This document shows, piece by piece, positions 57,356 through 64,000 of a DNA stretch of 64,000 nucleotides. Numbering within the stretch: position 1 is the first letter of the stretch; every line of letters begins with the position of its first letter. Below the pieces are notes generated by a model. That model did no database searches, was not told the origin of the DNA, and saw nothing but the letters and a program-made list of their open reading frames with translations. A program made the position numbers and the translations under genes. The DNA lies in NCBI GenBank assembly GCA_004293165.1, contig RDYL01000002.1, positions 186,001 to 250,000 of the forward strand. Direction: 5' to 3'. This DNA comes from Flavobacteriia bacterium. GTDB lineage: Bacteria > Bacteroidota > Bacteroidia > Flavobacteriales > Flavobacteriaceae.

Positions 57356-57628
57356 CTAAAATAAGTCGCTGTGAGTTCCAGTATTTGTAAGGATTAGTCT
57401 TAGTTTGTTGTCATCTTGCAACCAAACTAACAACCAATCAGGTTTTATATGGCATTCCCATAATCCGTCATAATTTCCAGATAATTTGTGGGGTTTATAT
57501 TTTGCTGGTAACTTTCCAGTTTCTTTTAATAGTGTAATTACTGTTTGTAATTTTTCAATATCATAACCACGCTTTACACAAAGTTTGTAGTCTTTTTTGA
57601 ACTTATTAGTAAATGAAATAGAATACAC
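57356..57628 (-). CDS. Type II toxin, YafQ/RelE family mRNA interferase
   Basis: 90 residues from a GTG at 57628. Strands and helices of the RelE fold: FTNKFKKDYKLCVKRGYDIEKL, ..LPAKYKPHKLSGNYDGLWECHIKPDWLLVW and the C-terminal LRLILTNTGTHSDLF. HKLSG, HI.PDWLL and the TGTHSDLF end are YafQ hallmarks; the last His is the catalytic residue in YafQ. It would cleave mRNA on the ribosome. Its GTG overlaps the antitoxin stop by one base. Confidence 0.92.
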   Translation of the reverse strand: MYSISFTNKFKKDYKLCVKRGYDIEKLQTVITLLKETGKLPAKYKPHKLSGNYDGLWECHIKPDWLLVWLQDDNKLRLILTNTGTHSDLF

Positions 57629-57834
57629 TATGCGCTTAATTTCTTAAACAAATCATCTACACTTTTTACTTCGGTTACACCAATTCCCTTTTTGGCGTCT
57701 TGAATAGCTTTTTCAGTTGCAGCATTATAACGAGGTTCATAGGTTTCAACCTTTATGTATGGTAAACTTTTAAGATACTCAAGCAGTGCTTTAGTCTCTT
57801 TTTTACGTTGGTCAAATTTTATAATTACTTCCAT
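57628..57834 (-). CDS. Antitoxin of the YafQ-type toxin (DUF2683-like)
   Basis: 68 residues from the ATG at 57834 (MEVIIKFDQRKKETKALLEYL); an in-frame ATG at 57864 lies at the promoter and is less likely. After a short beta-strand and helix comes a linker with YEPRYNAATEKAIQDAKKG and a C-terminal helix SVDDLFKKLSA, the part that wraps toxins of this type. DUF2683-like antitoxins are commonly paired with YafQ/RelE toxins in Bacteroidota. Stop overlaps the toxin start by 1 nt. Confidence 0.85.
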   Translation of the reverse strand: MEVIIKFDQRKKETKALLEYLKSLPYIKVETYEPRYNAATEKAIQDAKKGIGVTEVKSVDDLFKKLSA

Positions 57835-57853
57835 AATAGTAGTCTTTAACAAA

Positions 57854-57861
57854 CAAATATA
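57854..57861 (-). promoter_or_regulatory. Predicted -7 element of the toxin-antitoxin operon
   Basis: CAAATATA on the plus strand is TATATTTG on the minus strand, 19 nt before the antitoxin ATG at 57834. Confidence 0.55.
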
Positions 57862-57941
57862 CAAAATTTATTCCAAAATAATACCCCTAAAAATGTTTAA
57901 CTTTTGGAGGCATATTCAAATGACAACTGTGAATTTCTTTT

Positions 57942-58249
57942 TTAGAACTTAGGATTGCTTTTATCAAAAGGTAAGCTTTTATCATTTTCATAAAGCAGTA
58001 TAGCCCCTGAATAGCGATCAAATGCCACTCTTTTAATTTTAGTTCCTGTAGTTGTTTCCCAATAATTTCCATAATCTGCGACTACTTCATGATACAGCAA
58101 ACTGTCTTCTTCTGACAAACTCATTTCTATTTCAGATGGAGGTGTATCATATTCTTGAATGGTAATTGTACCGCCTCTTACCTGTTTTATGTTTTGTTTG
58201 TTTTGGCAGGAAAGTAAAATCAGCATTAAGAAAAAAAAATAAATTTCAT
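57942..58249 (-). pseudogene. Small lipoprotein gene with a possible frameshift in a 9-base A/T run
   Basis: As read, the frame is open from an ATG at 58226 and gives 94 residues that begin inside the lipobox (MLILLSCQNKQN). An ATG at 58249 opens MKFIFFF, which would continue into LMLILLSC to make a textbook lipoprotein signal peptide, but the two are one base out of phase. The mismatch falls in the run of nine A on the plus strand (58231-58239); ten would join them. The mature part (ITIQEYDTPPSEIEMSLSEED.., WETTTGTKIKRVAFDRYSGAILLYEND) is a small unknown domain. Either a slippage-switchable gene, an inactivated one, or a sequencing error. The start at 58226 would also yield a poor but usable lipobox. 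Confidence 0.6.
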
Positions 58250-58321
58250 TTGGAACTATTTATTCTTAAGTGTGTATAATTTATTCATATTACTAGCTTT
58301 TAATTACTGATTTTTCAATTA

Positions 58322-58358
58322 AAAACTAATGCCTCGAGAGATTTGAGGCATTAGTTTT
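58322..58358. terminator. Terminator after the M4 metalloprotease gene
   Basis: AAAACTAATGCCTC (58322-58335) pairs with GAGGCATTAGTTTT (58345-58358) around a 9-nt loop. Confidence 0.92.
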
Positions 58359-58367
58359 AATATAAAT

Positions 58368-61300
58368 TTACTGTTTCACAATCCTAACCGACTTACTCGT
58401 TTTCTCCCCGTTAAAATTTAGGATGTACAAGCCACTTTGTAGTTCGGTTAAATCTAATTCTTCTTGCTCTAAAACGGCATTAAAACTGCCTTCTTTTACT
58501 TTTTGCCCTAAAGCATTGTAGATTTCATAAGAACTTACATACTCTTTTGAAGTTATGAAAATTTTTGAAGAGGTTGGGTTTGGATAAACAATTATACCCT
58601 CATTTAATTCAAAATCACCACTGCTTAAAGTTGTAGAATTATAATTCGCACTCCAGCCATTACTTCTCAATGCTTCATCCGACAAGAATAAAACATACAT
58701 ACTAGAACTAGTTGATGTTACTGAGGATGGTAATGTTGTACCTGTGAATTGCCCTAATACTGGCGCTGAACTATTAGCTCCATCAAAAACAATTACACCA
58801 TCATAATTTAATTCTGTGTCAAAAGAAGTAAAAGATAATGTAATAGTATTTGCAGTTGTTGGTTGTATTAACCAAGCACATTGTGAATTATTTGCATATT
58901 TATCAGTACCACTTCCATCAGAAAAAGTACCACTTGGAGCAGTTAAAGTTGTAACAGATGAATTGCAATAAGAATTTTGAGTAGAAGTATAATAAGCAGA
59001 CCAACCTTGAAAAGTATCTGAAATATCAGAAGTAAATTTAATAAACATACTACCACCTGAAGAAGAAATTGCTTGTGGAATATTATTGCCTGTAAATTTA
59101 CCAATCAGTGTTGCACTTGCAGAGGCACCATCATAAACTTCAACCACATCATAAATAGAATTACCATCTGTAGAAGCTTGTTCTAAATCAAATTCTGTAA
59201 AATTTAATGTTATACTCGTTGCATTTGGCGGCTGAATTAACCAATTACAATTACTATTATTACAGTAATTATTTGTTCCACTACCATCTGAAATAACACC
59301 GTAATCTGATGTATTCAAAGTTGTTGTTCCTGTACAAAATGAAGAACCTGTTGATGTATAGTTTGCACTAAAACCTTGTAATGATGTTGAAAAATCTGAA
59401 ATAAAAGCAACTACCATAACACCAGTTGAAGAAGATACTGAGGCAGGTAACGAAGTGCCTGAATAAGCCGCAATTGGAGTTGTAGCTGTTAAACTATCAT
59501 AAATTACCACGCCGTCATAATTTAATTCTGTATTAAATGAAGAAAAGTTCAAAGTTACACTTGTTGCACAGGGTGGTGCTATATACCAATAACACTTTTG
59601 ATTATTTGTATAATTATTGGAACCTGAACCATCACTAAAAGACCCTGCTGGTGTTGTTAACATTGTTAGTCCACCACAAGCTGGAGTTGACATAACCGAA
59701 GTGTAGTTTGCTGACCAACCCCCAAAAGTATCTGTAGCATCAGATGTAAACTTTACGCACATTGCTCCTACACCTGCTGTAGTAGAAATTGTTGGAGGTA
59801 ATGTATTGCCCCACCAAGTAGCCAAAACAGGATAAGTATCATCTGGACCGTCATAAACAGTAACTATATCATAGGTAGCCTCTGTATCAAAAGCTGTAAA
59901 ATTTAATGAAATTTGTGTTGCACCCGCAGGTGCAATTACCCATTTACAACTTGAATTATTTCCATAATTTGCAGAACCACTACCATCTGTAAAAGTTCCG
60001 CTTGATGCAGTTAATGAAGTAGTTCCAGAACAAAAACTATTTGGGTCATTTCCTATACCGACAGCATACCAAGCGTTTCTAACTGCAGTATATTCTGGCG
60101 AAGGATTACCATATAATTCTTGTGCGGCTAATAATGAACCATAATAGGAATCCATATATGTTGAATTAGGACTTGGCAAATAAGTAGTTAAGTTTTTATA
60201 CGCGATTTGTCGTGCTTTATTAATTCCAATAGAAGTTACTGAATATGTATTATTTAAATCATTAGTTCCAGTGATTGTTGATGTAGAAGTGTTTTGAGCA
60301 AGTAAATAAAACCAATAGTTTTGAACACCACTATTATAATGAACCCCACCATAATCAAAGTTAATGTCAGTTGGATTTTTCCAATATTGCCCACTATTGT
60401 ATGTATCTGGATGTTGCTTTAAACTTGGCTCCTCCATTGACCTTAAAAAATTTCCACTTGGCAATTTTACATCTTCACCAATTGTCCAATTTGCTGTTAA
60501 TGGTTTTGTGTAAAACTCGATACAAGTGCCAAATATGTCAGAAAATGATTCATCCAATGCTCCTGATTCACCTTGATAAACCATCGGAGAAAATGATGAA
60601 TTTCTTTTTTCTACAACCATATGAGTAAATTCATGCCCCTCAACATCAAGGCCAACAACTGGATTCATTGAATTACCATCACCCATTCCATACATCATAA
60701 AATTATAGGGAGAAGGCCTAGCACCAGCATTATTTGGGCTTCTATTATTTTGTAATTGATAATCAGGAGGATTTATATAATTTTTTATTACACTACCATT
60801 ACCATCATAACTATTACGATTGAATACATTTAAATAAAAATCATACGTTTTTTGCATACCCCAATGAACATCAAGAGCTGGATTATTATTGTTTACAACA
60901 TAGCTACCACTATTTCCGCTGGTAGTCCAATTTCCGCTATTAGAACCAATAACAAAGCCACCACCTAAATCATCACCACCTACAGGGTCATAATCCCAAA
61001 TTTCAACTGTATATGGCTGTGAAACTAAGGGGATATATAAATTAAAAGTTACCGTTGGAAATGTATTATTAATATAAGAGTCTCGACCATTATATACTAT
61101 TTCGTTAGAAGCATTTTTAACTTTGATATATAAATCTGGACTTGTATCACCAATAGCCGAATACCACCAATTTTGGGAAATATTAGATATAGTGAATTTT
61201 GTTAAAGCTGGATAAGTTGTCCAGGTAGTAGAATTATTTATATAATCTATTGAATTTGGATATCCACTAGTAGTATAGTCACTGGCATTTGTTGCGTCAA

Positions 61301-62204
61301 AAGTTTGAATATTACGTGTATTATCTCTTAATCTATATCCGCCATTGTAACTATCAGTAATTATGGATTGAGTGCCACTATACATAGTATTTGCAGTTGC
61401 TGGTGTATCTGCTAATACTGCATTTTCAGAATTACTTACATCATACTTGAAAGGCATAAAAGGTTTTTTCTCAATTACCTTTTCACTATCAGTACTCATA
61501 CAATTAGTAACTAAACTAATTGTATTTAAAATAGTACCATTATTAGCATCAATGTAAACATTAGCCATAACAAATGGATTGGCTGAATCTATTCTAACTC
61601 TATGAACAAATTTAAAGTCAAAACTTACGCCATTTGGTATTTTAGCTATTATAGTTTCTACAGGATATGTATTTATTAAATCGGTAACTTTTAGATGCTC
61701 TTTTGCATTGATAACGGCATTTTCAATCGAAACAATTGGGTTAACGTCTGTTTTTTCAAATTGAGCTATTTGACCGTTAGAAGCATAAACGATACCATTT
61801 TTAGCATGTAACATTAATATTGCCCCTTCAATTGATACATTTTTGTAGTATTGCTGATAATAATTATGAGTTAAATTTAATTCATCTGTTTTTGAAGATA
61901 ATAATACAAAAGAATGATTGTCATCTAAATTGAACCAAGAGTTAAAATCTTTAGATAGTTGTTCTGTTGTTTTATTTTCTTTTGATAAATCAACATAAAA
62001 AGAGCCATTATGGTTTTCTATTTTTAGCTTTGATTTTTTTATTGTGTCATTTGTTTTAGGAGCTAAAACATTTTGACTTGTAGTGCCTTTCTTTATTTGA
62101 AAAGGATTTACAATTGTTGGAGGGGTAATATTTTTTTGAGAAAACATGCCAATGCTTAACAAAAGCATTAAAAGATTAAGCAAAAGAGTAATTTTGTTTT
62201 TCAT
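58368..62204 (-). CDS. Secreted M4 (thermolysin-type) metalloprotease with four CUB-like domains and T9SS sorting domain
   Basis: 1278 residues. Signal peptide (about 1-22, GMFSQK), FTP/PepSY propeptide (about 45-215), a P-domain-like insertion (about 280-420), M4 catalytic domain (about 425-720) with VEGHEFTHMVVE (zinc, about residue 523) and GALDESFSDIFG (third ligand Glu), then four CUB-like domains of 110-120 residues starting near 725, 842, 958 and 1081 (each C...L....G.F.DGSG...Y.NN..C.W.I.P). The type-A sorting domain starts near 1200 (GIIVYPNPTSSKIFI, YEIYNALGQKV, SGLYILNFNG). Exported by T9SS to degrade external protein. Last of three genes, 10 nt after the membrane gene. Confidence 0.94.
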   Translation of the reverse strand: MKNKITLLLNLLMLLLSIGMFSQKNITPPTIVNPFQIKKGTTSQNVLAPKTNDTIKKSKLKIENHNGSFYVDLSKENKTTEQLSKDFNSWFNLDDNHSFVLLSSKTDELNLTHNYYQQYYKNVSIEGAILMLHAKNGIVYASNGQIAQFEKTDVNPIVSIENAVINAKEHLKVTDLINTYPVETIIAKIPNGVSFDFKFVHRVRIDSANPFVMANVYIDANNGTILNTISLVTNCMSTDSEKVIEKKPFMPFKYDVSNSENAVLADTPATANTMYSGTQSIITDSYNGGYRLRDNTRNIQTFDATNASDYTTSGYPNSIDYINNSTTWTTYPALTKFTISNISQNWWYSAIGDTSPDLYIKVKNASNEIVYNGRDSYINNTFPTVTFNLYIPLVSQPYTVEIWDYDPVGGDDLGGGFVIGSNSGNWTTSGNSGSYVVNNNNPALDVHWGMQKTYDFYLNVFNRNSYDGNGSVIKNYINPPDYQLQNNRSPNNAGARPSPYNFMMYGMGDGNSMNPVVGLDVEGHEFTHMVVEKRNSSFSPMVYQGESGALDESFSDIFGTCIEFYTKPLTANWTIGEDVKLPSGNFLRSMEEPSLKQHPDTYNSGQYWKNPTDINFDYGGVHYNSGVQNYWFYLLAQNTSTSTITGTNDLNNTYSVTSIGINKARQIAYKNLTTYLPSPNSTYMDSYYGSLLAAQELYGNPSPEYTAVRNAWYAVGIGNDPNSFCSGTTSLTASSGTFTDGSGSANYGNNSSCKWVIAPAGATQISLNFTAFDTEATYDIVTVYDGPDDTYPVLATWWGNTLPPTISTTAGVGAMCVKFTSDATDTFGGWSANYTSVMSTPACGGLTMLTTPAGSFSDGSGSNNYTNNQKCYWYIAPPCATSVTLNFSSFNTELNYDGVVIYDSLTATTPIAAYSGTSLPASVSSSTGVMVVAFISDFSTSLQGFSANYTSTGSSFCTGTTTLNTSDYGVISDGSGTNNYCNNSNCNWLIQPPNATSITLNFTEFDLEQASTDGNSIYDVVEVYDGASASATLIGKFTGNNIPQAISSSGGSMFIKFTSDISDTFQGWSAYYTSTQNSYCNSSVTTLTAPSGTFSDGSGTDKYANNSQCAWLIQPTTANTITLSFTSFDTELNYDGVIVFDGANSSAPVLGQFTGTTLPSSVTSTSSSMYVLFLSDEALRSNGWSANYNSTTLSSGDFELNEGIIVYPNPTSSKIFITSKEYVSSYEIYNALGQKVKEGSFNAVLEQEELDLTELQSGLYILNFNGEKTSKSVRIVKQ

Positions 62205-62214
62205 GATTGTTTAT

Positions 62215-62883
62215 TTAATTTGTTGCATTAAATGGGTGATTGAATAATTCTTTTAGTGAAAAATAAGTTAAAAAGACACTATAAATTGATAAAATGAAAA
62301 CTCCAGTATTTAATGATTTTTTTAAAAGACATAAATTTTCAAAATCAAAATAAATTGTAAATAATGCAACAATTATGATTAATAGAAAAAGAATTATTAA
62401 ATACTTTACAGCTTCAAAATGTGCTTTTCTATATTGATTTAATTCAGGCATTGCTGTTTTAAAACAAAACTCAATATTCCGTTTATCTGACATCAACATA
62501 GTATAATCTTCACTAAGGTTGTTGTTCTTCGAATAAACTAATTTTTCATCGATTTTAGGAATTAGTTTCAAATAATTTCTTTCATACTGGCTTTCAAATA
62601 ATACATATCCATAATACTCGTATTTAGTCAAAATCGCATTGAATTTCTCCATATTTCTTTTAAGTGCGTCATCTATTAAATTCAGCCTAATAGTTAAAAC
62701 CGCTACAACTATTGTGAATAATAAGCCTTCAATTTGAATTATTGATGATAAAATAGTATCGCTTTTATTTCCAACGAAAAAAATATTACAATTGTAATAT
62801 TCTATAATTGATAACAGGTAAGCCATTGAACCTGAGAATAGTATTGGCAAAATTATTTGCTTAAAAAATAATTTGGGATTCAT
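62215..62883 (-). CDS. Membrane protein of unknown function with four helices
   Basis: 222 residues. Two N-terminal hydrophobic segments (IILPILFSGSMAYLLSII, IIQIEGLLFTIVVAVLTIRL), a charged cytoplasmic helical middle (about 75-150; LKRNMEKFNAILTKYEYY, MPELNQYRKAHFEAV) and two C-terminal segments (YLIILFLLIIIVALFTIYF, GVFILSIYSVFLTYFSL). No family recognised. It sits between the DUF1036 gene (16-nt gap) and the M4 protease gene (10-nt gap), clearly one operon, so an accessory role in export or sensing of that protease is conceivable but unproven. Confidence 0.8.
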   Translation of the reverse strand: MNPKLFFKQIILPILFSGSMAYLLSIIEYYNCNIFFVGNKSDTILSSIIQIEGLLFTIVVAVLTIRLNLIDDALKRNMEKFNAILTKYEYYGYVLFESQYERNYLKLIPKIDEKLVYSKNNNLSEDYTMLMSDKRNIEFCFKTAMPELNQYRKAHFEAVKYLIILFLLIIIVALFTIYFDFENLCLLKKSLNTGVFILSIYSVFLTYFSLKELFNHPFNATN

Positions 62884-62899
62884 TTTTTAGTTTGTACAA

Positions 62900-63793
62900 T
62901 TAATTAAAAGTCCATTTATTTACACCGGGAACTACATTTCTTTTAGTAAACTTCTTTTTACTCCAACAATCTTTAGTATCGGCAAATTTTATTTTAAAAG
63001 CTTGAGTAGCATCAACACAAAATTGCCCATCACCAGACCCCCATTCGGTTACTAATCCTTGTCGTCCTCTTATATAGACATTACCTGTGTAATTTCCAAT
63101 ATCAATTGTTCTATTACTATATGGCTGTATTGTATACCAACCTACTGAAGTCCAACATTTGTCGTTATTGTCATAATAGGCATAACAAGCACTAATTTCA
63201 GAACCCGTGTTGTTGTAAAATTCTATAAAAGTAGAAGCTTGAGAAGTTGGAGTATTATAAGTTGTTTGAGGGGCAATTTGAACAGCATTAGAATTATTGG
63301 AAGACATTAAATACAATTCAGGTTCTCCGTCTAGAAAAAAACGCTTTAAGTAAGTATAATCTAATCTATCATTGGAAATATCTTTAAAATAACTCACTGG
63401 CATCATGGCGTTAGTAGCATCACCCATTTTTGGTTGGTCTATAACTCCAGCAGCGTTTATTAAAACACTTAATTTATCTGGATTATAAGTTTGCCCAAAC
63501 GAATTTGTGATAAATCTAACTGCATAACCTGAAGCAGTTATATAAGTGTTACCATCTGGGAGCGATTGCTTTTCGATACTTAATCGTTGATTTATAACTA
63601 TGTAATTCCCGTTTTTTGTGTAAGCAACTCTCATATAATTATTTCCATAACTATATGTATCATTAAGTACCATCAAACAATCATACTTAATATTCCCTGT
63701 ATAAAAAGTAATTTCACAAATTGTTGTTTTTGCCTCAGATTTACTTGAAATAAAAAACAATGATAAAATCAAAATTCCTAATATTTTTTTCAT
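62900..63793 (-). CDS. Exported protein with a C-terminal DUF1036-like domain
   Basis: 297 residues. Signal peptide (about 1-21, SKSEAKT). The N-terminal half (CEITFYTGNIKYDCLMVLND.., LDGEPELYLM) is of unknown fold. The C-terminal ~105 residues match DUF1036: SACYAYYDNNDKCWTSVGWYTIQPYSNRTIDIGNYTG.VYIRG, then TEWGSGDGQFCVDATQAFKI, with paired Cys that could form disulfides. DUF1036 is usually found alone in exported proteins of proteobacteria and cyanobacteria; role unknown. First gene of the M4-protease operon, divergent from an XRE regulator. Confidence 0.8.
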   Translation of the reverse strand: MKKILGILILSLFFISSKSEAKTTICEITFYTGNIKYDCLMVLNDTYSYGNNYMRVAYTKNGNYIVINQRLSIEKQSLPDGNTYITASGYAVRFITNSFGQTYNPDKLSVLINAAGVIDQPKMGDATNAMMPVSYFKDISNDRLDYTYLKRFFLDGEPELYLMSSNNSNAVQIAPQTTYNTPTSQASTFIEFYNNTGSEISACYAYYDNNDKCWTSVGWYTIQPYSNRTIDIGNYTGNVYIRGRQGLVTEWGSGDGQFCVDATQAFKIKFADTKDCWSKKKFTKRNVVPGVNKWTFN

Positions 63794-63823
63794 GTGTCTT
63801 TGCTTTTAAATTATATAACTTCA

Positions 63824-63831
63824 CAAATCTA
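63824..63831 (-). promoter_or_regulatory. Predicted -7 element of the DUF1036/M4-protease operon
   Basis: CAAATCTA on the plus strand is TAGATTTG on the minus strand, 30 nt before the ATG. Confidence 0.55.
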
Positions 63832-63870
63832 ACAAATAATTTTATCACATTTTACAAATATTTACCTTTT

Positions 63871-63919
63871 ATTACGCATATATGTATAAAATGCGTAATT
63901 TTACTTACTCACAAGTGAG
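63871..63919. promoter_or_regulatory. Two inverted repeats in the divergent DUF1036/XRE promoter region
   Basis: ATTACGCAT (63871-63879) pairs with ATGCGTAAT (63891-63899). Closer to the XRE gene, CTCAC (63908-63912) pairs with GTGAG (63915-63919). They lie just upstream of the XRE -7 element and within about 90 bp of the operon start on the other side, so they are candidate binding sites of the XRE protein. Confidence 0.5.
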
Positions 63920-63921
63920 CA

Positions 63922-63929
63922 TAATTTTG
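63922..63929 (+). promoter_or_regulatory. Predicted -7 element of the XRE regulator, 4 nt before its ATG
   Basis: TAATTTTG is an exact TAnnTTTG; ATG at 63934 follows after 4 nt, implying a leaderless transcript. Confidence 0.6.
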
Positions 63930-63933
63930 TATT

Positions 63934-64000
63934 ATGCAACATCGAGGCGAAATCATCAAAGAGGCAGTGTACAAAAGTGGCTTTCCCATAACAGAGCTAG
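63934..64000 (+). CDS. XRE-family transcriptional regulator, N-terminus (partial)
   Basis: The first 22 codons before the window ends: MQHRGEIIKEAVYKSGFPIT and on. The pattern G..I..AV..SGF.IT.LA is the first helix and turn of a Cro/CI-type helix-turn-helix in small flavobacterial XRE proteins. It is divergent from the DUF1036/M4-protease operon, with palindromes between. It probably regulates itself and perhaps that operon. The rest of the gene is outside the window. Confidence 0.6.
   Translation, partial: MQHRGEIIKEAVYKSGFPITEL

Follow-up and report, generated by a model that had tools for sequence, protein, structure and literature searches.

Among described systems, those nearest to the protease considered here are two M4 metalloproteases of Flavobacterium columnare that are predicted to be exported by the T9SS, as given in the available part of PMC9936825. 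For DUF1036, the literature searched yielded a single paper naming the family (PMC10687234), whose available sections list a Candidatus Liberibacter DUF1036 protein as an interaction hub, give no function for it, and report the L. crescens counterpart to be essential. Within the Flavobacteriaceae, DUF1036 is also one of the modules, along with DUF7477 and a domain here called the N-domain, that are carried by caspase-family proteins in genomes G175, G344, G500, and G668.

Here we analyzed a 64,000-nt stretch of a Flavobacteriaceae genome (hereafter the window), near the end of which a DUF1036 gene, a membrane-protein gene, and an M4/CUB protease gene are headed by a divergent small HTH ("XRE") gene. 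We hold it to be probable, with restrained confidence, that these three genes form an accessory cassette, headed by a regulator and exchanged horizontally, that serves one T9SS-exported metalloprotease, with the DUF1036 protein acting as a non-catalytic partner. Judged by sequence comparison, the three-gene unit as such amounts to a local variant rather than a new machine in fixed form, because its middle gene is not common to its relatives.

Layout of the cassette and its protease

The three genes were called as ORFs on the reverse strand: the DUF1036 gene at 62900–63793 (297 aa), the membrane-protein gene at 62215–62883 (222 aa), and the protease gene at 58368–62204 (1278 aa). Their coordinates bear out the gaps of 16 nt (DUF1036 to membrane protein) and 10 nt (membrane protein to protease) given in a preliminary description of this DNA, and the genes may be co-transcribed. 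A terminator-like hairpin follows the protease gene on the same strand (58322–58358; 14-pair stem in the fold, loop of 9; −19.7 kcal/mol, z −7.0), and none of 200 shuffles folded equally well. It is absent from the list of the terminator scan (1 found, 2.3 expected), the loop limit of which is 8; a sigma-70 scan gave 43 matches against 36.0 expected.

The protease combines an FTP propeptide motif (61770–61913, reverse strand; residues 98–145), M4 catalytic and alpha-helical domains (60039–60935, reverse; residues ~424–722), four CUB domains (58629–60032, reverse; residues ~725–1192), and a T9SS type A sorting tail (Por_Secre_tail; 58386–58589, reverse; residues 1206–1273). All were assigned by Pfam, together with a PDB sequence search for the M4 and CUB regions and TIGR04183 for the tail, and the M4, M4_C, FTP, Por_Secre_tail, and CUB matches (the last in four stretches) all exceed the Pfam cut-offs, in agreement with the earlier description of a T9SS-tailed, thermolysin-type enzyme with four CUB-like domains. 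The M4 models score 76.0 (PF01447) and 151.1 bits (PF02868), and the search against PDB sequences gave a thermolysin match at 1.1e-40. Residues H524, E525, H528, E552, and H622 are invariant across the three orthologues aligned; by comparison with thermolysin, we take them to be the HEXXH...E zinc and catalytic residues and the later catalytic histidine. The domain models and these residues place the enzyme among M4 proteases, and proteolytic activity is predicted.

The sorting tail reaches 46.6 bits with PF18962 (cut-off 27) and 46.7 with TIGR04183 (cut-off 23), and is also found in the orthologous proteases of G092 (31.2 bits) and G039 (46.0 bits). Together with SprA, the T9SS component looked for, which scores 2971.7 bits in the window's genome, it suggests that the protease is exported by the T9SS. 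Comparison with the G039 orthologue gives a dN/dS of ~0.21, indicating purifying selection. The enzyme thus resembles the F. columnare pair in its FTP propeptide, thermolysin-type catalytic domain, and predicted T9SS export, but differs in its four CUB domains, none being listed for the pair in the available part of PMC9936825, and in its location in a strain-variable cassette with a DUF1036 gene and a divergent regulator.

The DUF1036 protein and the middle gene

The DUF1036 protein has a signal-like N-terminus (judged by eye), an N-domain at residues ~22–165, and a C-terminal DUF1036 domain, with the PF06282 match confined to residues 191–278 (29.7 bits, cut-off 23). Its counterparts in G092 and F. 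aciduliphilum score 26.2 and 29.3 bits; identity is 78% to the former protein and 79% to the C-domain of the latter. The gene is also under purifying selection relative to G092 (dN 0.15, dS 1.29, dN/dS ~0.12). The structure prediction was too poor for use (mean pLDDT 38), and a PDB sequence search with a five-row DUF1036 alignment gave no match at E up to 1. A PF06282 scan of 397 genomes of the family found three, a lower bound because in the window's genome, where one copy is known, it returned 0 candidates.

The N-domain is fused to a caspase in G500, G668, G175, and G344, and in G500 DUF1036 is fused as well. These caspase-family proteins thus share with the window's protein a signal-like start and the N-domain, and in G500 DUF1036 too; in the window, by contrast, the two domains form a protein of their own, and the protease, an M4 enzyme, is encoded apart from them. 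Since caspase-family proteins of other genomes contain these domains, the DUF1036 protein may assist secreted hydrolases as a partner without catalytic function, in substrate recognition or control. The earlier view that DUF1036 is usually an orphan is contradicted within this family, where it is linked to T9SS hydrolases and also fused to caspases.

The membrane protein reached no family cut-off in the profile scans. Its hydropathy profile has three strong stretches, and the fourth helix previously described corresponds to a weaker one near residues 190–211, seen by eye only; a single-sequence structure model is helical at low confidence (mean pLDDT 58). The GC content of its gene is 24.2%, against 33.0% for the window. 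No orthologue was found in 149 other genomes of the genus, with one weak local match in G053 (E 8e-4), and the middle gene elsewhere is unrelated, being a 93-aa ORF in G092 and a 123-aa ORF in F. aciduliphilum. Among these 150 genomes, the weak match aside, the membrane protein was thus found in the window's own alone, and the suggestion that it senses or helps to mature the protease finds no comparative support. A role as an immunity protein was also considered and is set back, because the middle genes are unrelated in relatives with an orthologous enzyme and so do not track it. We regard the protein as a lineage-specific component.

Linkage and probable exchange among genomes

The cassette lies in a strain-variable segment of 7412 bp (7.4 kb; L002:951–8362), of which positions 57950–64000 fall within the window. 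The segment is missing from G115, a genome of the same species, and we infer a gain by insertion in the window's genome and not a deletion in G115. The exact trio was not found in any other genome searched. This DUF1036 subfamily was found in three genomes (the window's, G092, and F. aciduliphilum), and in each the order is the same, with the DUF1036 gene followed by an unrelated small gene and a large T9SS-tailed hydrolase gene, beside a divergent HTH gene; the hydrolase is an M4/CUB protease in two and an alpha/beta-hydrolase in one. Conservation is thus found for the DUF1036 gene, T9SS hydrolase, and divergent HTH gene (3/3), but not for the membrane protein. Of the new accessory set initially proposed, the part that gains some comparative support is the accessory role of the DUF1036 protein, and not the specific trio or the membrane protein.

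Orthologues sit at other, unrelated genomic places near recombinase-like genes: that of G092 lies near a serine recombinase and a transposase-like ORF, and the G039 protease adjoins a tyrosine recombinase and an hsdM-like gene (names assigned by reading the ORFs). Viral contigs gave no match for the DUF1036 protein, the protease, or the membrane protein, and no plasmid place covered 80% of the DUF1036 protein or of the protease. A match on a Bernardetia plasmid is annotated as caspase family.

The genes might instead be chance neighbours in a variable, repeat-bounded stretch, perhaps co-expressed but without joint function, the protease merely digesting extracellular protein. Such a reading, which we consider unlikely though still worth reckoning with, is consistent with the different middle gene in both relatives, the full-length protease orthologue in G039 without a DUF1036 gene, the many unrelated genes adjoined by the regulator family, and the distant DUF1036 genes of G510 and G175, which have no adjoining secreted hydrolase in the stretches read. 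It is harder to reconcile with a DUF1036/small gene/T9SS hydrolase order kept in all three genomes at unrelated places, and with the tight spacing and strong hairpin of the window, although G092 has its three genes further apart (58 and 74 nt).

We find it improbable that the cassette serves antagonism, with the exported hydrolase harming competitors and one small protein shielding the producer. Its strain variability, T9SS tail, and variable small gene beside the hydrolase would fit, as would the predicted defence genes (a type IIG enzyme, an HpaII system, and PDC-M62-like pairs) at four of seven other non-housekeeping regulator loci and the link between T9SS and polymorphic toxins proposed in PMC7073777 (available part). 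The TANFOR toxins treated in that part are likewise found in Bacteroidetes, with T9SS genes nearby and variable small genes. However, TANFOR is absent from the Pfam matches of the cassette (Pfam may lack such a model), and the window's enzyme is conserved where the small gene varies: when the window is compared with G092, identity is ~70% over the catalytic and CUB domains, yet the middle genes are unrelated, the reverse of what matched immunity predicts. The enzyme is, moreover, an M4 protease of the ordinary kind, propeptide included. An effector–immunity (polymorphic toxin) pair, in which the small gene is matched to its effector, was not borne out, the proteases of the two genomes being orthologous and the small genes unrelated.

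The regulator gene and the predicted promoters

The regulator gene (102 aa, ORF) starts at 63934 on the forward strand and runs past the window end at 64000 (L002:6935–7243). Its assignment as an XRE regulator stands as far as a small divergent HTH gene exists, but no curated HTH model was reached over its cut-off: the Pfam models Csa1 (21.7, cut-off 27) and HTH_23 (18.8, cut-off 24.6) and NCBIfam PRK04140 (23.6, cut-off 263) all fall below, and a PHROG transcription regulator matches at E 7.5e-4. Its mode of action may resemble that of small HTH repressors. Short phage-type HTH repressors are alike in size and HTH region, with relatives on two viral contigs (31% and 45%) and the YWKDKY-type tail present in L103 too; unlike them, the window's regulator family is chromosomal, with about half of its loci at one housekeeping-flanked place.

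The family occurs in 15 of 249 genomes of the genus, and the regulator is under purifying selection relative to G597 (dN/dS ~0.07). Because 8 of 17 loci (excluding L091 of G621, a broken 39-residue fragment only) are without any such cassette and seven more lie beside other genes, the regulator is not specific to proteases. Two further searches of 125 genomes each, with large overlap, added no strong new loci and four matches at E 3.9e-5 to 8.5e-5. In both the window and F. aciduliphilum, an orthologous regulator gene adjoins the cassette and is transcribed away from it. Eight other genomes have this regulator and a PfkB-type gene as neighbours, and in F. aciduliphilum the two are separated by the cassette; the HTH protein of G092 is unrelated to that of the window (BLASTP).

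The inverted repeat noted at 63871–63919 in the 140-nt gap between the divergent genes is real, with 9-nt arms at 63871–63879 and 63891–63899, but 40 of 1000 dinucleotide shuffles contain arms of at least 9 nt. The case for a regulatory site is supported instead by an overlapping dyad, TACGCATATATGTATA (63873–63888; consensus TACaCA-N4-TGtGTA), which is present in 12 of 16 regions upstream of related regulators (L083 excluded, its start codon not being matched) and absent from four (L086, L088, L089, and L090; 9–10 mismatches). In a gapless alignment of the 16 regions with arms of 6 and a spacer of 4, position −61 was the best of 95 starts tried (64 of 96 paired cells), a conservation that is not an independent test because the regions are related; a scan of the window alone for the pattern was not significant (2.28 expected with one mismatch).

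On the operon side, a −7 box, TAGATTTG (63824–63831, reverse strand), with 0.13 expected by chance in the gap, predicts a start at ~63819; for F. psychrophilum, the available part of PMC9723704 gives TAnnTTTG at −12 to −5 as the sigma-A consensus. A second box, TAATTTTG (63922–63929, forward strand), would put the regulator's transcription start at its ATG, suggesting leaderless transcription, a reading limited to the window, G597, and G588 because T at −12 occurs in only 3 of 16 upstream regions.

In the likeliest reading of these elements, the small HTH protein is autoregulated: it would bind the dyad at 63873–63888 and control both its own promoter and that of the operon at 63824–63831. The operon would then yield a DUF1036 protein that has two domains and is exported, a membrane protein specific to the lineage, and a large M4 metalloprotease with its own propeptide, which would leave via the T9SS and hold its substrate or a surface with its four CUB domains. 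It is doubtful, in our judgement distinctly so, that the regulator controls only itself and sits beside the cassette as a hotspot effect. The dyad (≤4 mismatches) is found in five of seven upstream regions examined from cassette-less loci, where the next gene is 251–320 bp off, as such a reading would have it; yet the operon-side −7 box lies at −110, −110, and −109 from the regulator ATG in three genomes, and homology spans it in all three, these sequences being related and not independent cases.

In G597 and G588, the regulator and intergenic region are homologous to approximately the predicted transcription start of the cassette, and the next gene differs. A rather unlikely extension of control by the HTH protein is that its gene and both promoters form an exchangeable expression head, with cargo swapped at about the transcription start. 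The cargo operons would then comprise, no more probably, T9SS hydrolases paired with a DUF1036 protein, lipoproteins, and other exported proteins. Equally speculative is that DUF1036 with the N-domain serves secreted hydrolases in general as a partner module, either as a fusion with caspases or as a separate protein next to M4 proteases and a lipase-like enzyme.

DUF1036, a little-studied family, thereby gains a testable role as a partner of secreted hydrolases, and Flavobacterium strains may differ in their exported enzymes through one regulator and promoter block with different cargo.

Anatomy and strain variability of the protease cassette

The cassette is encoded on the minus strand and comprises a DUF1036 gene (62900-63793), a gene for a 222-aa membrane protein (62215-62883) and an M4/CUB protease gene (58368-62204); these three ORFs, their strand and the 16- and 10-nt gaps match the preliminary description. 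The large protein contains an FTP propeptide, both M4 domains, four CUB stretches and a C-terminal sorting domain (T9SS tail), each above the Pfam cut-off, and SprA is encoded in the same genome. The residues that we take to be zinc-binding and catalytic do not vary across three aligned orthologues. In the 297-aa first protein, the DUF1036 match is confined to residues 191-278. The gene of the regulator, a 102-aa HTH protein, is divergent from the cassette, starting at 63934 and ending outside the window. A near-symmetric hairpin (58322-58358; z -7.0) lies 3' of the protease gene. The perfect inverted repeat noted earlier exists, but 40 of 1000 shuffles equal or exceed it. Approximate dN/dS values of 0.21 (protease), 0.12 (DUF1036) and 0.07 (regulator) indicate purifying selection.

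G115, a same-species genome, lacks 7412 bp (L002:951-8362, on the window's own locus extended past the window end) and has 14 bp instead; one border of this indel falls inside a dispersed palindromic repeat. The DUF1036, membrane-protein and regulator genes are all missing from G115, where a close protease relative was not found either (best E 4e-9). The genome sets searched were subsets of a larger group: in a set of 150 from the genus, the DUF1036 protein occurs in two (its own and G092, Flavobacterium sp. Ww15), the membrane protein in its own besides one weak local match, and the full-length or nearly full-length protease in three (its own, G039 and G092), with some part of the protease matched in 146. 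A two-row alignment of the DUF1036 protein against 398 genus genomes matched its own, G092 and G668, the last only in the N-domain (residues ~22-165), and a single scan of 84,980 species genomes recovered two loci, in G092 and F. aciduliphilum. We conclude that the region is a genuine cassette that varies between strains, lies beside a regulator gene and encodes an M4/CUB protease predicted to be exported by the T9SS.

Immediately beyond the window, a palindromic repeat array (L002:7244-8740; core TGTATCGAGAAC / GTTCTCGATACA) lies between the regulator and glyS, and G115 carries similar DNA (79%) at 137 kb. A 96-aa ORF (L002:8066-8356) with inverted repeat copies on either side (82% complementary over 38 nt) resembles a GIY-YIG nuclease on reading and weakly matches a PHROG endonuclease (E 0.0014); array and ORF are possibly a repeat-linked mobile unit. 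Adjoining the indel, and common to both same-species genomes, are a YafQ-type toxin gene above cut-off and a RelB-like antitoxin gene that falls short of its cut-off at 17.3 against 22.4 bits (57356-57864). Past the hairpin, the final 8 nt of a 94-aa lipoprotein-like ORF (57942-58226) lie outside the indel border.

DUF1036 and secreted hydrolases

The proposed tie between DUF1036 and a secreted protease was upheld and widened, but the trio including the membrane protein (1/3 genomes) is not conserved. The order DUF1036, small gene, T9SS hydrolase recurs in all three genomes that yielded this DUF1036 subfamily, and the hydrolase is an M4 enzyme in two. In G092, a divergent 119-aa HTH gene, its product unrelated to the window's regulator by BLASTP, is followed by the DUF1036 gene, a 93-aa ORF, a 1435-aa protease (M4 domains, four CUB stretches and T9SS tail) and a lipoprotein-like gene. 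In F. aciduliphilum, the order is a divergent orthologue of the window's regulator, a PKD lipoprotein-like gene, the DUF1036 gene, a 123-aa ORF and a 589-aa alpha/beta-hydrolase with a T9SS tail. As counter-cases, the four-CUB protease of G039 stands alone between recombinase-like and hsdM-like genes, and no secreted hydrolase adjoins the more distant DUF1036 genes of G510 and G175 in the stretches examined. The G510 gene overlaps a membrane-protein gene unrelated to the window's (BLASTP).

The N-domain was identified in six of 249 family genomes scanned, its own counted. It is fused to caspase in G668, G500 and G175, to caspase and DUF7477 in G344, and to DUF7477 with no caspase match in G298 and G206; G191 has an extra, weak match (E 5.5e-4), left unassigned. 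Signal peptides were called by eye. A single G500 protein joins N-domain, DUF1036 and caspase, and a Bernardetia plasmid match spanning residues 24-185 is annotated as a caspase family protein. We infer that the DUF1036 protein may be a partner of secreted hydrolases, so called because N-domain and DUF1036 are also fused to caspases elsewhere. Small lipoprotein-like genes come after N-domain caspase genes (L057:8685-9119, L094:259-675, L054:6468-6962); the G500 and G175 products are related (32%, E 4e-17), that of G668 weakly at most.

Compared with G039, the T9SS tail of the protease is 38% alike and the catalytic and CUB domains ~80%; compared with G092, these values are 20% and ~70%, with the N-terminal part likewise lower (37-52%). 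Because the tails are much less alike than these domains, they may be exchanged.

The regulator and its upstream region

Relatives of the regulator occur in 15 of 249 genus genomes. Of 18 loci inspected, a set that takes in L002 and F. aciduliphilum, 17 have its gene. Judged by neighbour names assigned by reading ORFs, eight of the 17 lack cargo, with rnhA- and purN-like genes flanking one end and PfkB- and purF-like genes the opposite end. F. aciduliphilum shares these flanks, but there the DUF1036 cassette lies between regulator and PfkB, and three extra ORFs (72, 106 and 385 aa) separate rnhA from the regulator. Eight loci, including the window's, are at other places; neighbours at the seven others include a type IIG enzyme, an HpaII system, PDC-M62-like pairs and T9SS-tailed proteins. 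At L078, L080 and L081, an AAA ATPase/HNH-like pair near regulator relatives matches the PADLOC candidate system PDC-M62 (at L081, the ATPase alone was scanned). Distant relatives are also present on two viral contigs (L103:4968-5354, 31%; L104:180-448, 45%).

Across the 16 upstream regions compared, positions -61 to -46 form a dyad with the consensus TACaCA-N4-TGtGTA, and a -7-like box stands immediately 5' of the start codon. The dyad has at most four mismatches in 12 regions, none in the window (63873-63888), and is absent from four; the strict -7 box occurs in three (window, G597 and G588). In F. psychrophilum, TAnnTTTG spans -12 to -5 relative to the transcription start (PMC9723704); read with this spacing, the window's box would set the regulator's transcription start at its ATG.

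The window's regulator and upstream region are 82.9% identical to G597 over 409 bp and 73.6% to G588 over 431 bp. Homology stops at 63819 (G597) and 63816 (G588), and 63819 is also the predicted start of the operon transcript. The first ORF of at least 50 aa past the junction encodes the DUF1036 protein in the window, a 143-aa lipoprotein-like protein in G597 and a 601-aa T9SS-tailed protein in G588. Because these three cases are few and related, and the ends of local alignments are uncertain by some bases, we keep as a novel, less probable case the reading of an exchangeable head, in which the regulator block would be constant and the cargo beyond it would differ.
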